This document shows positions 11,733-34,141 of a stretch of 64,000 nucleotides of DNA, piece by piece (the stretch's first letter is position 1; every line of letters begins with the position of its first letter). The DNA comes from Candidatus Hydrogenedentota bacterium (lineage in GTDB: Bacteria; Hydrogenedentota; Hydrogenedentia; Hydrogenedentales; JAEUWI01): NCBI GenBank assembly GCA_016791475.1, contig JAEUWI010000009.1, forward strand, positions 1-64,000, written 5' to 3'. The notes below the pieces were generated by a model that was not told where the DNA came from, ran no database searches, and saw only the letters and a program-made list of their open reading frames with translations. The position numbers and the translations under genes are program-made.

Positions 11733-11857
11733 GGGGTCTTATGGGTCTTATGGGTCTTATGGGTCTTATGGGTCTTATGGGTCTTATGGGTCTTATGGGT
11801 CTTATGGGTCTTATGGGTCTTATGGGTCGTATGGGTCGTATGGGTCGTATGGGTCTT
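11733..11857. repeat. 9-bp tandem repeat array 1
   Basis: Thirteen full units of ATGGGTCKT from 11741, after a partial unit at 11733: nine units with CTT, three with CGT, then one with CTT. It fills the space between the divergent channel gene (starts 11628) and MaoC-like gene (starts 11953). Because the unit is a multiple of three, all frames stay open, but the resulting Met-Gly-Leu type strings are not convincing proteins. A second array is at 27386-27466. Confidence 0.95.
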
Positions 11858-11952
11858 GGGGTCTTTTCTTTGGCGGTTTGGCGACCTATAATGGCGAGGT
11901 GATCGTCGGATGACGACGCGCCCATACCGCAACCCATAGATCGGCCTGTGCC

Positions 11953-26935: not shown

Positions 26936-27325
26936 CTACTTCTGGTGCTTGTCGAGGAACGCGGCCACTTTCACGCGGTGGTCGCCCTGCAGTTCGATGA
27001 CGCCGTCCTTGAAGGCACCGCCGGCCGCGCATTGCTTCTTCAGCGCGGTTACGAGAGCGGTTCCGTCGCCGGATACATTCTGGATGACGGTGGCGAGTTT
27101 GCCGCCTGGTCGCTTTTCATAGGTCAGGGGCCAGCCGCCCTTGCGGGTCTTGGCGACGCGCCAGGCGACCTTGGGCGTGTCCACGATGATCTCCGCCTTT
27201 GGTTTGGGTGGTGCGACGGGCTCGCGGGGTAAATCGCCGCGCAGGGCGCCCAGTGCTCCGAAGGGGGAATCGGTGAGGGGGGTGCGGGGGGCGTTTGTGT
27301 CGATTTTGGGGTTCTTGGCGCTCAT
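26936..27325 (-). CDS. SUI1/eIF1-like translation initiation factor (YciH type)
   Basis: A 129-residue protein. The C-terminal 75 residues match the SUI1 domain of bacterial YciH: the RKGGWPLT beta-hairpin, a GGKLATVIQNVSGDG segment, a CAAGGAFKDGVIELQGDH strand-turn-strand, and a FLDKH end. The N-terminal 50 residues are a proline-rich linker. SUI1 proteins in bacteria are thought to act at the ribosomal P site in start selection. Start at ATG 27325. It lies upstream of the glycosyltransferase and downstream of the second 9-bp repeat array. Confidence 0.85.
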   Translation of the reverse strand: MSAKNPKIDTNAPRTPLTDSPFGALGALRGDLPREPVAPPKPKAEIIVDTPKVAWRVAKTRKGGWPLTYEKRPGGKLATVIQNVSGDGTALVTALKKQCAAGGAFKDGVIELQGDHRVKVAAFLDKHQK

Positions 27326-27338
27326 GGGGAAATTGTAG

Positions 27339-27489
27339 CAGTTGATGGTTGATAGTTGATAGCGGGCGGGGGCTTTGGGGGAGAGATGGGTCTTATGGGT
27401 CTTATGGGTCTTATGGGTCGTATGGGTCGTATGGGTCGTATGGGTCGTATGGGTCGTGTGGGTCTCTATCAATTGTCAACTGTCAACTG
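27339..27489. repeat. 9-bp tandem repeat array 2 with flanking inverted repeats
   Basis: Nine units at 27386-27466: three ATGGGTCTT, five ATGGGTCGT and one GTGGGTCTC, in the same CTT-then-CGT order as array 1. The array is flanked by imperfect 24-bp inverted repeats, 27339-27362 and 27466-27489, that match at 20 positions. It lies between divergent genes, SUI1-like on the left and mcsA on the right. Confidence 0.9.
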
Positions 27490-27545: not shown

Positions 27546-28067
27546 ATGCTCTGCCAGAAGTGTCACAAAAAGCGCGCCACCATTCGCTATGCCGAAGTCG
27601 TTGACGGTCACGTCACCGATCAGTTCTGGTGCAAGGACTGCATGGCCCTTCAGCGGAGTGCGAGTGAGGGCTTTGAGCTTTCGGAGGTGCCTTCGGCGCG
27701 TCCCAGCAAGGCCTCGATCCACAAGGTGGTCAGCCGGGTGGTTCGGGCGCAGCGCACGTGCCCGCAGTGCGAGACGCGGCTTCAGAGCGTGCTGGATACC
27801 AAAATGATGGGATGCCCGGCGTGCTATGCGCAGTTTGCCGATGAAGTCCCCGCCCTTGCGGCGAAGCTCCACGAAGCCCAGGTCCACCGGGGCAAGACCG
27901 CGCATCCATCCGACGTGCGCACCCAGTTGCGTTCGGATTTACAGGCCAAGCGTGCGCTCTTGCGCAGTGTACTCAAGTCAGAAAACTACGAGGCTGCCGC
28001 GCAGTTGCGCGATGAAATACGGGAGCTCGAAGGCGGATTGTATGCATCCGGCCCGGGGGCGGACTGA
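27546..28067 (+). CDS. mcsA: McsA-like zinc-binding UvrB/UvrC-motif protein
   Basis: A 173-residue protein with four CxxC zinc-ligand pairs (CQKC, CKDC, CPQC, CPAC) in the N-terminal two-thirds and a UVR helix near the C-terminus (KRALLRSVLKSENYEAAAQL). McsA activates the McsB arginine kinase and helps feed targets to ClpC in Firmicutes and other phyla. Start at the ATG at 27546 after an AGAGGA site. It stands first in a run mcsA, mcsB-like, clpC, bamA, with the mcsB-like gene 3 bases downstream. Confidence 0.9.
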   Translation: MLCQKCHKKRATIRYAEVVDGHVTDQFWCKDCMALQRSASEGFELSEVPSARPSKASIHKVVSRVVRAQRTCPQCETRLQSVLDTKMMGCPACYAQFADEVPALAAKLHEAQVHRGKTAHPSDVRTQLRSDLQAKRALLRSVLKSENYEAAAQLRDEIRELEGGLYASGPGAD

Positions 28068-28070
28068 GCC

Positions 28071-29243
28071 ATGACGCTGGATACGATTTTATCGCGCGAC
28101 CCGCAATGGCAACGGGGTGAAGGGGCCCCCAACACCGAGACGGTGGTGCTTACGCTTTGTAATCTGGGCCGCAATCTCAATGACATGCCCTTCCCCGCGC
28201 TGTGCAATCCGGACGAGCGCAGTTCCGTGGAGGACCGCCTGCTCCGGGTTTTCGACCAGTTCAATCTGCTGGCGACGGGCGAATACTTCAGTCTGGTCGA
28301 TCTCCGGGCTTCGGACGTGCAATTGCTGGCGGAGCGCCAGCTCATCACGTTGAATCTGACGACGCCGCGCAAGGGGCAGGGCATCTATGTTGCCCACGAC
28401 CAGTCTCTCAGCATTCTGGTGAACGACGAGGATCACTATTGCATTCGGGTGCTTTCTTCCGGGCTGAACCTTCAGGACGCGTGGACCCGGGCCAGCCGTA
28501 TGGACGACCTTCTCAGCGGTGTGCTGGATATTGCCTTTTCGCCGACGCTGGGTTTCCTGACGCGGAATTTGAATCATCTGGGCACGGGGCTGAAGCTGAG
28601 CCTGTTGATGCATCTGCCCGCCTGTGTTCAGGAGGGGGCGCTTCACGAGATTCACGCGCTGACGGAACCGCAGAATCTGGATTTCAGCGGCGTCGGCACG
28701 GGCGTTCCCGATTTGCACCCCGCCGACAAGCAGGAGTTGAGTGATCGCTGGCCGGTGTACAGCCAGGCCCTGTACAACGGCATGGGTGGCTTCATGCCGC
28801 GAGGGATGCACGAGACGGAGGGGGATCTCTTTCAGCTCAGAAATCGTACCACGCTGGGCCACACGGAAGAGGAGATCATCTTCCGGCTGAAACAGTGCGC
28901 CGAGGAGATAATCAAGAAGGAGTCCGCGTTGCGCCTCCGGCTGTATGAAAAGAACGTGGAAGTGCTGCAGGACCGGATAGAGCGGGCCCAGGCGCTGGCC
29001 GCGAGCGCCCGGCTTATTCCTTTTGAGGAGAGCTTTTCCCTCCTGTCCTCCTTGCGGCTTGGGGTCGCCCTGGGGCTGCTCCCCGGTCAGACAGTGGCAG
29101 ACCTGAACGGATCACTGATACACTGTCAGGGAGCCCACGTGGAGCGGCAGCTTCAATCCGGGACGGTCACCCTGGATGATTTGAGCCTGAAGCGGATGCG
29201 GGCGAAGCAGTTTAAGACGCAGTTTGCGCCCACTCAGGGCTGA
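28071..29243 (+). CDS. mcsB: McsB-like protein with a degenerate arginine-kinase active site
   Basis: A 390-residue homologue of the protein-arginine kinase McsB, identified by its place between mcsA and clpC and by retained stretches: GTGL near 171, MHLPA near 180, RTTLGHTEEEI, and a C-terminal SSLRLGVALGLLPG. Known catalytic positions are altered: SSRIRLARN is LTLCNLGRN (27-35), NEEDH is NDEDH (118-122), the cysteine of SCPTN is lost (TRNLNH, 164-169), and RASV is KLSL. An insertion of about 30 residues lies near 210-240. It may be a pseudokinase that still binds partners or substrates. Alternatively it uses another chemistry. Confidence 0.8.
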   Translation: MTLDTILSRDPQWQRGEGAPNTETVVLTLCNLGRNLNDMPFPALCNPDERSSVEDRLLRVFDQFNLLATGEYFSLVDLRASDVQLLAERQLITLNLTTPRKGQGIYVAHDQSLSILVNDEDHYCIRVLSSGLNLQDAWTRASRMDDLLSGVLDIAFSPTLGFLTRNLNHLGTGLKLSLLMHLPACVQEGALHEIHALTEPQNLDFSGVGTGVPDLHPADKQELSDRWPVYSQALYNGMGGFMPRGMHETEGDLFQLRNRTTLGHTEEEIIFRLKQCAEEIIKKESALRLRLYEKNVEVLQDRIERAQALAASARLIPFEESFSLLSSLRLGVALGLLPGQTVADLNGSLIHCQGAHVERQLQSGTVTLDDLSLKRMRAKQFKTQFAPTQG

Positions 29244-29384
29244 TTGGGCCCCGCCTCCGGGCGCCGGGCTTGCAGGTAAAGTGTTGCGCCACAACCATTT
29301 GATGTCGCGCACGGGCAGTACGGAAACCAATGGCCTCCCCGCGCCTACCCTGGCGTTGGTCGGCCGTAAAGAAAGGATCACCAC

Positions 29385-31847
29385 ATGTGGGAACGATTTA
29401 CGGAGCGCGCAAAACATGTCGTGAGCGCCGCACGTGAAGAGGCCACCCGCCTGGGTAGCGAATACGTGCGCACGGAGCACATCCTCCTTGGGCTTTGCCG
29501 CGAGCCGGAGGGGATTGCCGCCCGAGCCCTCGAAAACCTGGGTGTGGATATAGAAGCCCTGGCCATCGAGATTGAGCAGCAGGTCCAGCCCGGTTCCGCC
29601 GTGGTTTCCGGCGACGAAATTGCCTTCACGCCCCGCGCCAAGAAGGTGCTGGAGCTGGCGGTGGAGGAAGCGCGTCGTTTCAACCACAGCTACATCGGCA
29701 CGGAACACATTCTGCTCGGCCTGTTGAAAGAGGGCGAAGGCATTGCCGCCAAAGTCTTGCAGGACATGAAGATAGACCTTGGCCGCATCCAGGCGGAGGT
29801 CATCCGCCTGCTGGGCGATCAGGGCCGTTCGGGCAGCGAGCAGGCGCAGACGGGCAAGAAATCCCAGACGCCCGCGCTGGATAACTTTGGTCGCGACTTG
29901 ACCCAACTTGCCCGGGAAGAAAAGCTTGACCCGGTCATCGGTCGCGAAGGCGAGATCGAGCGCGTGATCCAGGTGCTCAGCCGCCGGACGAAGAACAACC
30001 CCGTACTGATTGGCGAGGCCGGTGTGGGCAAGACGGCGATTGTCGAAGGGCTGGCCCGGGCGATCATCGCGGGCGACGTACCCGATCTGCTTTTGAAGAA
30101 GCGCGTGTTGACGCTGGATCTGGCGGGGGTGGTGGCGGGCACGAAGTACCGCGGCCAGTTTGAAGAGCGCCTCAAGTCGGTGATGAAGGAAATCCGCCGC
30201 GCGGACAATATTATTCTGTTTATCGACGAACTCCACACGATTGTGGGCGCGGGCGCGGCCGAGGGTGCCGTGGATGCGGCCAACATGCTCAAGCCGGCCC
30301 TGGCGCGCGGCGAGCTCCAGTGCATCGGCGCGACGACGATGGACGAATACCGCAAGTATATCGAGAAAGACGCGGCGCTTGCCCGCCGCTTCCAGACGAT
30401 TATCGTGGAAGCGCCCAGTGTGGAGCAGACGATTGAGATTATCAAAGGCCTGCGCGACAAGTACGAGGCCCACCACCGGGTGAAATTTTCGGACGAGGCC
30501 GTCATTGCCGCCGCGAAGCTTTCGAATCAGTACATCGCCGATCGTTTCCTGCCCGACAAGGCGGTGGACGTGATCGACGAGGCGGGTAGCCGCGCTCGTC
30601 TTCAGATTACGACCCGCCCCCACGCGCTGAAGGAGATCGAGCTCGAAATCGAGGCGATCACCCAGGAGAAGGAGTCGGCGATCCGCCGACAGGAATACGA
30701 GAAGGCGGCGGCGCTCCGGGACAAGGAGCGGACCTACATCAACAAGCTCGAGGACAAGAAGCGCGAGTGGGAGATGAAGCGGGACTCGTCGGAGACGATC
30801 ATCAACGAAGAGGACATTGCCTATATTGTGTCCAAATGGACGGGCGTGCCCCTTACGAAGCTGGAGGAGAAAGAGTCGGAGCGGCTCCTGCGCATGCGCG
30901 AAGAGTTGCACCGCTCGATCATCGGCCAGCACGAAGCCATTGATTCGATCACGCGGGCGATCCAGCGTTCCCGCGCGGGTTTCCGGGATCATGCGCGGCC
31001 GGTGGGCTCTTTCCTGTGCCTCGGGCCGACGGGCGTGGGCAAGACGCTCATGGCCAAGACGCTGGCAACGTTCCTCTTCGGCAACGAAGACGCGCTGATC
31101 ACGGTGGACATGTCGGAGTACATGGAACGCTTCGCGGTTTCTCGCCTGACTGGTGCGCCTCCCGGCTACGTGGGCTACAACGAGGGTGGTCAGTTGACCG
31201 AGCAGGTGCGTCGTCGGCCCTATTCCGTGGTGCTTTTCGACGAAATTGAAAAGGCCCACCCGGACGTGTTCAACGCGCTGCTTCAGGTGCTCGAAGAGGG
31301 GCAGATGACCGATTCCACCGGACGCCGCGTTGATTTCCGGAATACGGTCATCATCATGACGAGCAACGTGGGCGCGCGCCGGATTGGCAAGGGCGGCGGC
31401 ACGCTGGGCTTCCAGCGGGACGACCAGGAGTCCATGTATCTGAAAATGAAGGAGCGGGTGATAGAAGAGGCCAAGAAAGTCTTCAATCCCGAATTCATGA
31501 ACCGCCTGGACGACACGCTGGTTTTCCACCGTCTGACGGACGAGCAGTTGATTGACATTGTCGATATACAGGTCAAGGATATGGTGGAACGGGTGGCGGC
31601 AAAGGGTGTACACTTGCGGTTGCGCCACGAGGCCAAAGAGTTCCTGGTTCGCTTGGGAAGTAACGAGGAATATGGCGCTCGGCCCCTCCGGCGCGCGGTA
31701 CAAACGTACATCGAGGATCCCCTGGCGGAATTGCTGCTTCGGGGCAACTTGGAACCTGGAACCCAAATCGAAGTCTGGCCCTCGGACGCGGAAGACAAGC
31801 TCGTGTTCGAACAGGCTGAATTAGCTGCGGAAGGTATCACTACTTGA
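29385..31847 (+). CDS. clpC: ATP-dependent unfoldase ClpC
   Basis: An 820-residue AAA+ protease partner. It has a double Clp-N repeat (residues about 1-145), a first AAA module with Walker A GEAGVGKT near 210, a middle domain holding a UVR motif ([13 protein letters not shown], near 430), and a second AAA module with GPTGVGKT near 547. ClpC unfolds marked proteins for ClpP. No clpP lies in the window. It follows mcsB-like at 141 bases. Its stop codon overlaps the bamA start, joining proteolysis and outer-membrane assembly in one transcript. Confidence 0.96.
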
Positions 31848-34141
31848 AGAAACTAGCGTTGGGTCTCGCCCTCGCGCTGTTCACTGTCCTTACTCAATCC
31901 CAGGCGGGCGCCCAGGCGGGCGGAACCGTTGGGGAAGTGCGTATCGATGGTCTGGAACGCGTTAGTGAACAGTTGGTCCGTTCGAAGCTGGAAGTGCAGG
32001 CCGGTCAGGAGTACAACCCGCTGGCCGTCTCCCGCGACATCCGCCGGTTGAACGAGCTGGGGTTCTTCACCCAGATCAAGGCCGATGCCGCCCGCGAGAA
32101 CAACGCGCTGACGATCACGTACATTGTTGCCGAGAAGCAGGTCATTGAAAAGGTCCTGGTGATGGGCAACAAGAAGATCAAGGAGCGCCGGATCCTTTCG
32201 GCGCTCTCCATGCGCGAAGGGGATCCCTTCATTCCCGAGGCCTACGAGGAGGAGCGCATTGCCATTCTGGGGCTGTATGAAGGCAAGGGCTTTGCGAACA
32301 CCACGGTGGACGTGGTGGCGGAGCGGGTTGGCCCCTCGCGCATGCGCCTGATCTACACGATCCAGGAAGGTCGGAAAGCGAGAATCCGCAGTATCAAGTT
32401 TGAAGGCAACGACACGCTTTCGGGGCGCAAATTGCGCAAGCTGATGGCGACAAAGCAGGCCCGGTGGTTCCTGGGCGGCAAGTATGAGGAAGAGAAGCTC
32501 GAGTTTGACCTCCAGCAGATCATCAACAATTATGGCGATTTCGGCCGGCTTGAGGCGGAGATCACCAAGACCGATCTTCTTTACAGCGACAACGGCAAGA
32601 AGATGGACCTGACGATCCACGTTCAGGAAGGGGCGGAGTACAAGCTGGACAACCTCGAGATCGCGGGCAACGCGGTATTCGACGACGACGAGCTTCTGGA
32701 GCAGGTGGAGGTGACGGCGGGCGAAGTGCACAACAAGTCGCAGGTGGAGAAAGACGCCGCCGAACTTCAGGACGGCTACCAGAGCAGCGGCTATGTCGCG
32801 GCCAACGTTTCACCGGTGGTTATCCTGGATAAAGACAACAAGACCACGCGGGTGACGCACAAGATTGAGGAGGGCGACCTCAAGTACATCCGGGAAGTAA
32901 AGATTATCGGCAACGAACTCACGAAGGACGAGGTTATCCGCCGCCAGCTCGCGCTGGAGCCGGGGGAGCGCTACGACGGTTCGCGCCTGGAGTTGAGCAA
33001 GCGCAACCTCCAGCGCACGGAATATTTTGAGACGGTGCGTACGAATCTGAACTTTGCCGACGACGAGGACCTTTTCACCGATCTGATCTTCGACGTGGAA
33101 GAGGGCAAGCAGGGCAACTTCAATTTTGGCGCGGGGTTCAGCAGCGACGAAGGCCTGGGCGGCTTTGCCGAGTTGCGGCTGAACAACTTTGACGCGTTGA
33201 ACTGGCCCAACTTTACGGGCGGCGGCCAGCAGTTGGCGTTGAAGTTCAACATCGGCAGCCAGCGCGACCAGTACTCCCTGAGTTTCACGGATCCCGAGTT
33301 CCTGGGCTATCCCTTCGCGGTGGGCTTTGACGTGTTCGACGATTCCTACGAAGTTCGGGGCGGCGCGGACTATACGGAAGATCGCCAGGGCGGCCAGTTG
33401 CGCCTGGGCAAGACCCTTTCGAACTATGTGAGCATGCGGTCGGCGCTGCGCCATGAGACGACCGAGATCACGGGCCTGCCCTTCTTTGTGAACCCGATTA
33501 TCCGGCGTCAGGCGCAGGAAAGCACGACGATCAGTCTGCAGAACGAGTTTGAGCGCAATACGCTCGATGCGTTCCGGGACCCGACGAAAGGCAGCAAGCA
33601 CGTGCTTAGCCTGGAATTTGCGGGCCTGGGCGGGGACAACGACTTCTATAAGGTCTTCATGGATTCCCAGTGGTACCGGGCGCTGGACGAGAAAGAGAAG
33701 TGGATCTTCTCCTTCCGGTCTCGCGAGGGTTACGTAGCGGAGTACGGAAACTCGGACTACGTGCCTCTTACGGACAAGTTCTACGCGGGCGGCACCAACA
33801 CGGTGCGCGGCTATGACAACCGCGACATTGGCCCCAAGGCGAAGGAGTATATCTTCTTTGGCGACGAGTTCCCGCTGGGCGGCAACATTACCTATATCGG
33901 CAATCTGGAGTTGAAGTACAAGCTCACGGAGCAGATGCGTTTCTACACCTTCATCGACGCGGGCGGGGTGTGGGACGACAGCGATTTCGACTTTGGCGAG
34001 ATGCGTTACAGCGCCGGTATCGGCATTGGCATGGAAGTGCCGCGCCTTGGACCGATTCGCGTGGATTACGGCATCCCGCTGAACGCGGACGAGGATCAGG
34101 GCAGCGGACGTCTCCACCTGATTTCGGGCATCCGGTTCTAG
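31844..34141 (+). CDS. bamA: outer-membrane assembly factor BamA
   Basis: A 765-residue Omp85 protein: signal peptide ending AGAQA, tandem POTRA domains over residues about 27-400, then a C-terminal beta-barrel ending in the terminal phenylalanine of SGIRF. The conserved barrel-lumen motif is present as VRGYDNRD (loop 6), and GGTNTVRGY is typical of BamA. It inserts proteins into the outer membrane. The TTG start at 31844 overlaps the clpC stop (TTGA) and has a GGAAGG ribosome site, so no other start is needed. A terminator and a new promoter for skp follow. Confidence 0.95.
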   Translation: MKKLALGLALALFTVLTQSQAGAQAGGTVGEVRIDGLERVSEQLVRSKLEVQAGQEYNPLAVSRDIRRLNELGFFTQIKADAARENNALTITYIVAEKQVIEKVLVMGNKKIKERRILSALSMREGDPFIPEAYEEERIAILGLYEGKGFANTTVDVVAERVGPSRMRLIYTIQEGRKARIRSIKFEGNDTLSGRKLRKLMATKQARWFLGGKYEEEKLEFDLQQIINNYGDFGRLEAEITKTDLLYSDNGKKMDLTIHVQEGAEYKLDNLEIAGNAVFDDDELLEQVEVTAGEVHNKSQVEKDAAELQDGYQSSGYVAANVSPVVILDKDNKTTRVTHKIEEGDLKYIREVKIIGNELTKDEVIRRQLALEPGERYDGSRLELSKRNLQRTEYFETVRTNLNFADDEDLFTDLIFDVEEGKQGNFNFGAGFSSDEGLGGFAELRLNNFDALNWPNFTGGGQQLALKFNIGSQRDQYSLSFTDPEFLGYPFAVGFDVFDDSYEVRGGADYTEDRQGGQLRLGKTLSNYVSMRSALRHETTEITGLPFFVNPIIRRQAQESTTISLQNEFERNTLDAFRDPTKGSKHVLSLEFAGLGGDNDFYKVFMDSQWYRALDEKEKWIFSFRSREGYVAEYGNSDYVPLTDKFYAGGTNTVRGYDNRDIGPKAKEYIFFGDEFPLGGNITYIGNLELKYKLTEQMRFYTFIDAGGVWDDSDFDFGEMRYSAGIGIGMEVPRLGPIRVDYGIPLNADEDQGSGRLHLISGIRF

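Follow-up and report, generated by a model that had tools for sequence, protein, structure and literature searches.

The mcsA-mcsB-clpC locus

The window, that is the whole 64-kb stretch of DNA analysed, contains an mcsA-mcsB-clpC cluster at positions 27546-31847 (Table 1), an order of genes common to most families of the phylum Hydrogenedentota. Three bases separate the stop codon of mcsA from the ATG of mcsB. The original prediction that both neighbours of mcsB are normal holds, as the McsA of the window has all eight cysteines and the UVR motif, and ClpC is complete in length and domains. An alternative start of mcsA in the list of open reading frames, a TTG at 27375 within a 9-bp repeat, is unlikely to be the real one. 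The 9-bp repeat (ATGGGTCGT / GGGTCTTAT) forms two arrays, at 11734-11865 and at 27386-27464; the latter lies just upstream of mcsA and opposite a SUI1/YciH-like gene (26936-27472, minus strand). On the other side of the cluster, the start of a BamA-like outer-membrane assembly gene (31844-34141) overlaps the end of the clpC open reading frame by 4 bases, and genes resembling lpxD and lpxC-fabZ lie farther downstream. It is possible that clpC is co-transcribed with envelope biogenesis genes.

Table 1. Genes and sequence features of the cluster, in window coordinates; residues are numbered as in B. subtilis (Bs) McsB
Feature	Position	Strand	Description
mcsA	27546..28067	+	173 aa, ATG at 27546; NCBIfam NF053706 83.9 bits, under its cut-off of 210
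mcsB homologue without kinase site	28071..29243	+	390 aa, ATG; Pfam PF00217 127.5 bits
LTLCN for SSRIR	28149..28163	+	Bs R29->L, R31->N; alignment
NDEDHYC for NEEDHIR	28422..28442	+	Bs E121 kept, R125->C; alignment
FSPTLGF, McsA-docking loop equivalent	28536..28556	+	S. aureus Y147-Y153, Bs FNEQRGY; alignment
RNLNHLGTGLK for SCPTNVGTGLR	28563..28595	+	Bs C167->N, R176->K; alignment
34-residue insertion in active-site lid	28692..28793	+	between Bs R207 and E212; alignment
LKRMRA, equivalent of phospho-arginine (pArg) receptor RDIRRA	29187..29204	+	Bs R337->L, D338->K; R341-A342 kept; alignment
clpC	29385..31847	+	820 aa, full length; Clp_N, AAA and D2-small domains

By homology and fold, the product of the central gene belongs with McsB, as found with PF00217, with phmmer (1.8e-38 against 8wtb) and with Foldseek. 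The NCBIfam McsB models match it clearly but below their equivalog cut-offs (223.7 versus 385 and 190.1 versus 500 bits). Structure modelling, which had been proposed with the original prediction, was carried out with AlphaFold2 from 92 genome-derived sequences and gave an intact McsB fold (pLDDT 96, pTM 0.94). As the first twelve Foldseek matches of this confident model are all McsB chains, with 6tv6 and 6fh1 as the best (E = 5.7e-29 for 6tv6), the fold is that of McsB. It is common to the McsBs of B. subtilis, G. stearothermophilus and S. aureus (PDB 6tv6, 6fh1-3, 8gqd, 8wtb), including the two-domain layout with a C-terminal helical domain. TM-scores against full-length McsB structures are about 0.75–0.82 normalized by the length of the query and 0.86–0.92 by that of the target. 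Known McsBs and the window locus are also alike in the gene order mcsA-mcsB-clpC, the McsA-docking loop and the invariant R341-A342. The window protein differs from them by the absence of C167, of E212 and of a complete set of ATP-phosphate arginines, by the loss of R337 and D338 from the pArg receptor, by a longer lid and by its NCBIfam scores.

Among other phosphagen kinases of PF00217, the invertebrate arginine and creatine kinases have a catalytic domain of similar fold (Foldseek E about 1e-14), but they are small-molecule kinases with intact catalytic residues and no link to ClpC. Bacterial serine/threonine pseudokinases are comparable only in that they, too, keep a kinase fold without catalysis; their protein-kinase-like fold is unrelated. 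McsB is named only in the reference list of a 2025 review of bacterial pseudokinases (PMC12599244).

The kinase site in the window and in the phylum

The sequence of B. subtilis McsB used for residue numbering was checked against 8wtb and 6tv6. In Limulus arginine kinase, E225, E314 and C271 contact the guanidinium, and R126, R229, R309 and R330 contact the transferred phosphoryl (PMC11075012). By standard motif equivalence, we read the corresponding McsB residues as E121, E212, C167, R31, R125 and R207. The residues compared are R29, R31, R125, R176 and R207 for the ATP phosphates, E121 and E212 for the substrate guanidinium, and the reactive cysteine C167.

Aligned with the B. subtilis protein, the window McsB keeps only E121 out of these eight residues, and the combination of catalytic cysteine, guanidinium-binding glutamates and ATP-phosphate arginines is absent. 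The arginine-kinase site is thus ruined, as originally predicted, down to the details: both arginines of SSRIR are gone, the active cysteine is replaced in SCPTN, which has become RNLNH, and RAS has become KLS. Additional losses concern R125, the lid residues R207 and E212, replaced by serine and glycine, and R337 and D338 of the pArg receptor.

An insertion of about 30 residues had also been noticed. It is real, comprises 34 residues and is located in the active-site lid, where it abolishes the R207...GEG(E212) motif. It was modelled by AlphaFold2 with a helix, at a block-mean pLDDT of 85 or more. Homologous long lids, with about 28–67 extra residues, are found in 36 of the 61 phylum members, most of them with a recurring Q-x-L-x-x-D-x-x-G signature; lids are short in families f5 and f11. 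In most families, what was once the ATP lid is now a longer structured element, a candidate new binding surface. Lid lengths had raised the suspicion that the decay was confined to the genus of the window, which was discarded as the short-lid members of f5 and f11 also lack the kinase site.

The extent of the loss was examined by the alignment with McsBs of many phyla that had been suggested at the outset. Hydrogenedentota were sampled with 68 genomes from one order and 11 families, 63 of which had a match to the window McsB, 61 being readable. The full set R29/R31/E121/R125/C167/R176/R207/E212 is present in none of these 61 McsBs, and C167 is absent in 60/60. The set is complete in 80/80 outgroup McsBs from Planctomycetota, Omnitrophota, Bacillota, Verrucomicrobiota, Lentisphaerota, Latescibacterota and other phyla, although these were fetched with a pattern including NE[RE]D and are biased at E120/E121. 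The loss is not a matter of chance, since it is common to 61 homologues in the phylum and found in 0/80 outgroup McsBs.

Because the fetching motif touches E120/E121, a second control free of that bias was drawn by profile from Planctomycetota. McsB was found in 282 of 294 genomes, with the exact CPTN-GTG motif in 212. The 30 best-scoring McsBs all have the full set. When 60 genes without the exact CPTN-GTG motif were read, 55 were intact, 3 were incomplete, with no residue lost in the part covered, and 2 were degenerate, so that every covered residue is kept in all but 2 of the 90 Planctomycetota McsBs read. The idea that the loss is unique to Hydrogenedentota was abandoned on account of these two (loci L266 in genome G101 and L263/L314 in G098). 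Both L266 and L263 have lost the catalytic cysteine and most other residues of the site, as in Hydrogenedentota, and the degenerate McsB of L263 likewise lies within an mcsA-mcsB-clpC cluster. They sit on long isolated branches of the tree, not robustly grouped with the Hydrogenedentota McsBs, and are probably separate, independent losses.

Each Hydrogenedentota genome has one phosphagen-kinase (PF00217) gene, which rules out an active McsB copy elsewhere in the genome. A search of the window's own genome with an McsB profile found no second McsB.

In a maximum-likelihood tree, all McsBs of the phylum lie on one side of a single branch (SH-aLRT 100, length 0.94), and the same split was obtained with the catalytic columns removed (SH-aLRT 99). 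Hardly any phylum member retains C167, P168, R31, R207 or E212. R125 and R176 persist in some members, R125 chiefly in f11. This pattern fits a chemistry lost once and early, with the ATP site eroding afterwards. The survival of E121 and of some arginines in some members counts against the favoured explanation of a pseudokinase.

Hardly any variation is seen in the phylum at N119, H123, H182 and the GTG segment beside the former site, and most families conserve the long lid, as might be the case if the pocket had acquired a new catalytic or ligand-binding role that leaves the classical arginine-kinase residues unused. However, active McsBs conserve the same residues and segment, which may have a structural role. 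Pocket columns vary freely between families, unlike what would be seen in a new active site, and phylum-specific conserved changes, such as P168->L and L277->A, are few. Such a new role is considered unlikely.

The gene could also be a decaying pseudogene, or the product of an assembly error, and mcsB does evolve faster than clpC. This explanation is hardly credible, and is refuted by the conservation throughout the phylum, where nearly all members across families have full-length open frames, by the confidently predicted fold and by low dN/dS values (0.04–0.27 for the 13 close pairs that allowed an estimate of dS). In most pairs, dN/dS of mcsB is similar to that of mcsA, or up to about twice as high. 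These values support purifying selection on mcsB which, together with the conserved synteny, indicates a working gene that is not decaying. McsA, its docking loop on McsB and ClpC are likewise maintained by purifying selection.

The McsA-docking loop and the phospho-arginine receptor

The zinc finger of S. aureus McsA binds residues Y147-Y153 of McsB and so positions the catalytic cysteine (PMC12467219). The equivalent loop persists throughout the phylum in the form F..(r)LG(Y/F), and the eight zinc-finger cysteines and the UVR motif of McsA are kept in all 57 members with these columns. As the loop is conserved although the cysteine that it served is gone, the simplest reading is that McsA would still dock on McsB, for a purpose other than catalysis. 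Once ClpC divergence is allowed for, distances between McsAs and between McsBs are still correlated (partial r 0.74, 0/2000 permutations), as is to be expected of partners, but also of neighbours whose rates changed together.

It had further been suggested that McsB may recognise phospho-arginine, and this part of the original prediction is not supported. The pArg receptor of B. subtilis McsB consists of four named residues, including R337 and D338 (PMC8370763). Both are lost in nearly all McsBs of the phylum (R337 is kept in about 3%), whereas R341 is invariant; the window McsB has L, K and R at the three positions.

The phosphatase YwlE, the eraser of the mark, was searched by its active-site P-loop motif CTGNTCRSP, of which the threonine is presumably the residue that sets the specificity. 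The specificity of YwlE is reported to hinge on one residue (PMC5506225). The motif was found in 0/68 phylum genomes, compared with 10/17 outgroup genomes and 34/65 Planctomycetota. The 30 LMW-PTPs of the phylum that were read have CLGNICRSP or CMGNICRSP, of the tyrosine type, or CTGN(S/A)CRSQ, of the arsenate-reductase type (ArsC). The two Planctomycetota with a degenerate McsB are also without the YwlE motif, but so is roughly every second Planctomycetota genome tested.

Of the 68 phylum genomes, 67 have ClpC. Both T/E pairs of its N-domain, the phospho-arginine-binding residues of the B. subtilis protein, are conserved in the window and in 75/75 sequences. With the invariant R341 of McsB, this conservation would suit an McsB that still reads phospho-arginine, on proteins modified by another kinase. 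That McsB remains such a reader is very improbable, given the loss of R337 and D338, the absence of any other phosphagen kinase from the phylum genomes and that of the YwlE motif.

Possible roles of McsB beside ClpC

The kinase residues being lost phylum-wide, the view of McsB as a pseudokinase is strongly supported by sequence. The protein is a pseudokinase of the phosphagen-kinase type in that its fold is kept under selection without the catalytic residues; from these features, the window McsB is expected to be devoid of kinase activity. The explanation that we favour, with moderate confidence, is that of an McsB orthologue that underwent a single loss of kinase activity, no later than the base of the phylum, and was kept as a pseudokinase partnering McsA and ClpC. 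The phylum probably gave up phosphorylating protein arginines at its base, with McsAB persisting as a kinase-independent partner of ClpC. It is somewhat more probable than the contrary that the entire phylum has abandoned protein-arginine phosphorylation and yet keeps McsA-McsB-ClpC as a phosphorylation-free quality control.

Gene order and known biology suggest that the window McsB binds ClpC. In the proposed mechanism, McsA would still bind McsB, and the complex would act on ClpC in a stoichiometric manner, by bringing substrates to it or by governing its assembly, with no writing or reading of phospho-arginine. Targeting without phosphorylation, as put forward in the original prediction, can reasonably be inferred, and an adaptor role is plausible. 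McsAB would most likely be a stoichiometric adaptor or gate of ClpC, the two not being separable here.

Two roles are ascribed to McsB, that of a kinase whose phospho-arginine marks send proteins to ClpCP and that of a ClpC adaptor, and they are hard to tell apart in B. subtilis. According to a review, the adaptor role in B. subtilis needs the kinase activity (PMC5506225), and a kinase-free adaptor would therefore be a departure. In the absence of stress, ClpC and McsB of B. subtilis bind each other, and oxidation of McsA is a known switch (PMC5506225). The McsA-McsB complex could accordingly be an inhibitor of ClpC, a stress gate released upon oxidation of the McsA zinc fingers or by competition with substrates. 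The invariance of all eight McsA cysteines in the phylum and the position of mcsB ahead of clpC in most families are in keeping with such a gate. However, the present data fit delivery and inhibition alike, and no stress-regulation site was recognised, as motif searches near the operon found neither a CIRCE-like element nor a match to a sigma-70-type promoter. The gate is regarded as a rather doubtful alternative.

The Hydrogenedentota system belongs with McsA-McsB-ClpC as a variant and does not form a kind of its own. In the open-access literature searched, no naturally occurring kinase-dead McsB is described. With the kinase removed and McsA, the McsB fold and ClpC kept, the phylum offers a natural separation-of-function experiment, where a kinase-independent function of McsAB becomes a directly testable question. 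If McsA-McsB-ClpC does operate without phosphorylation, McsB would have a function with ClpC that does not depend on the kinase, be it ancestral or evolved. It would be a case of pseudoenzyme within the phosphagen-kinase fold, and 'protein arginine kinase' is probably an incorrect annotation for the mcsB genes of Hydrogenedentota.

In family f3 (for example at loci L021, L026, L032 and L035), clpC usually does not follow mcsA-mcsB and is found elsewhere in most genomes, so that a ClpC-independent role of McsAB is possible in this family. In genus g7 of f3, the gene directly after the dead mcsB (L016:810-1628 and L022:792-1628, both on the minus strand) encodes two ClpC N-domain repeats and a UVR-like tail, without AAA+ modules. 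At least one g7 genome (G006) has a full clpC elsewhere. The free ClpC N-domain beside mcsAB could be a decoy or an adaptor platform.
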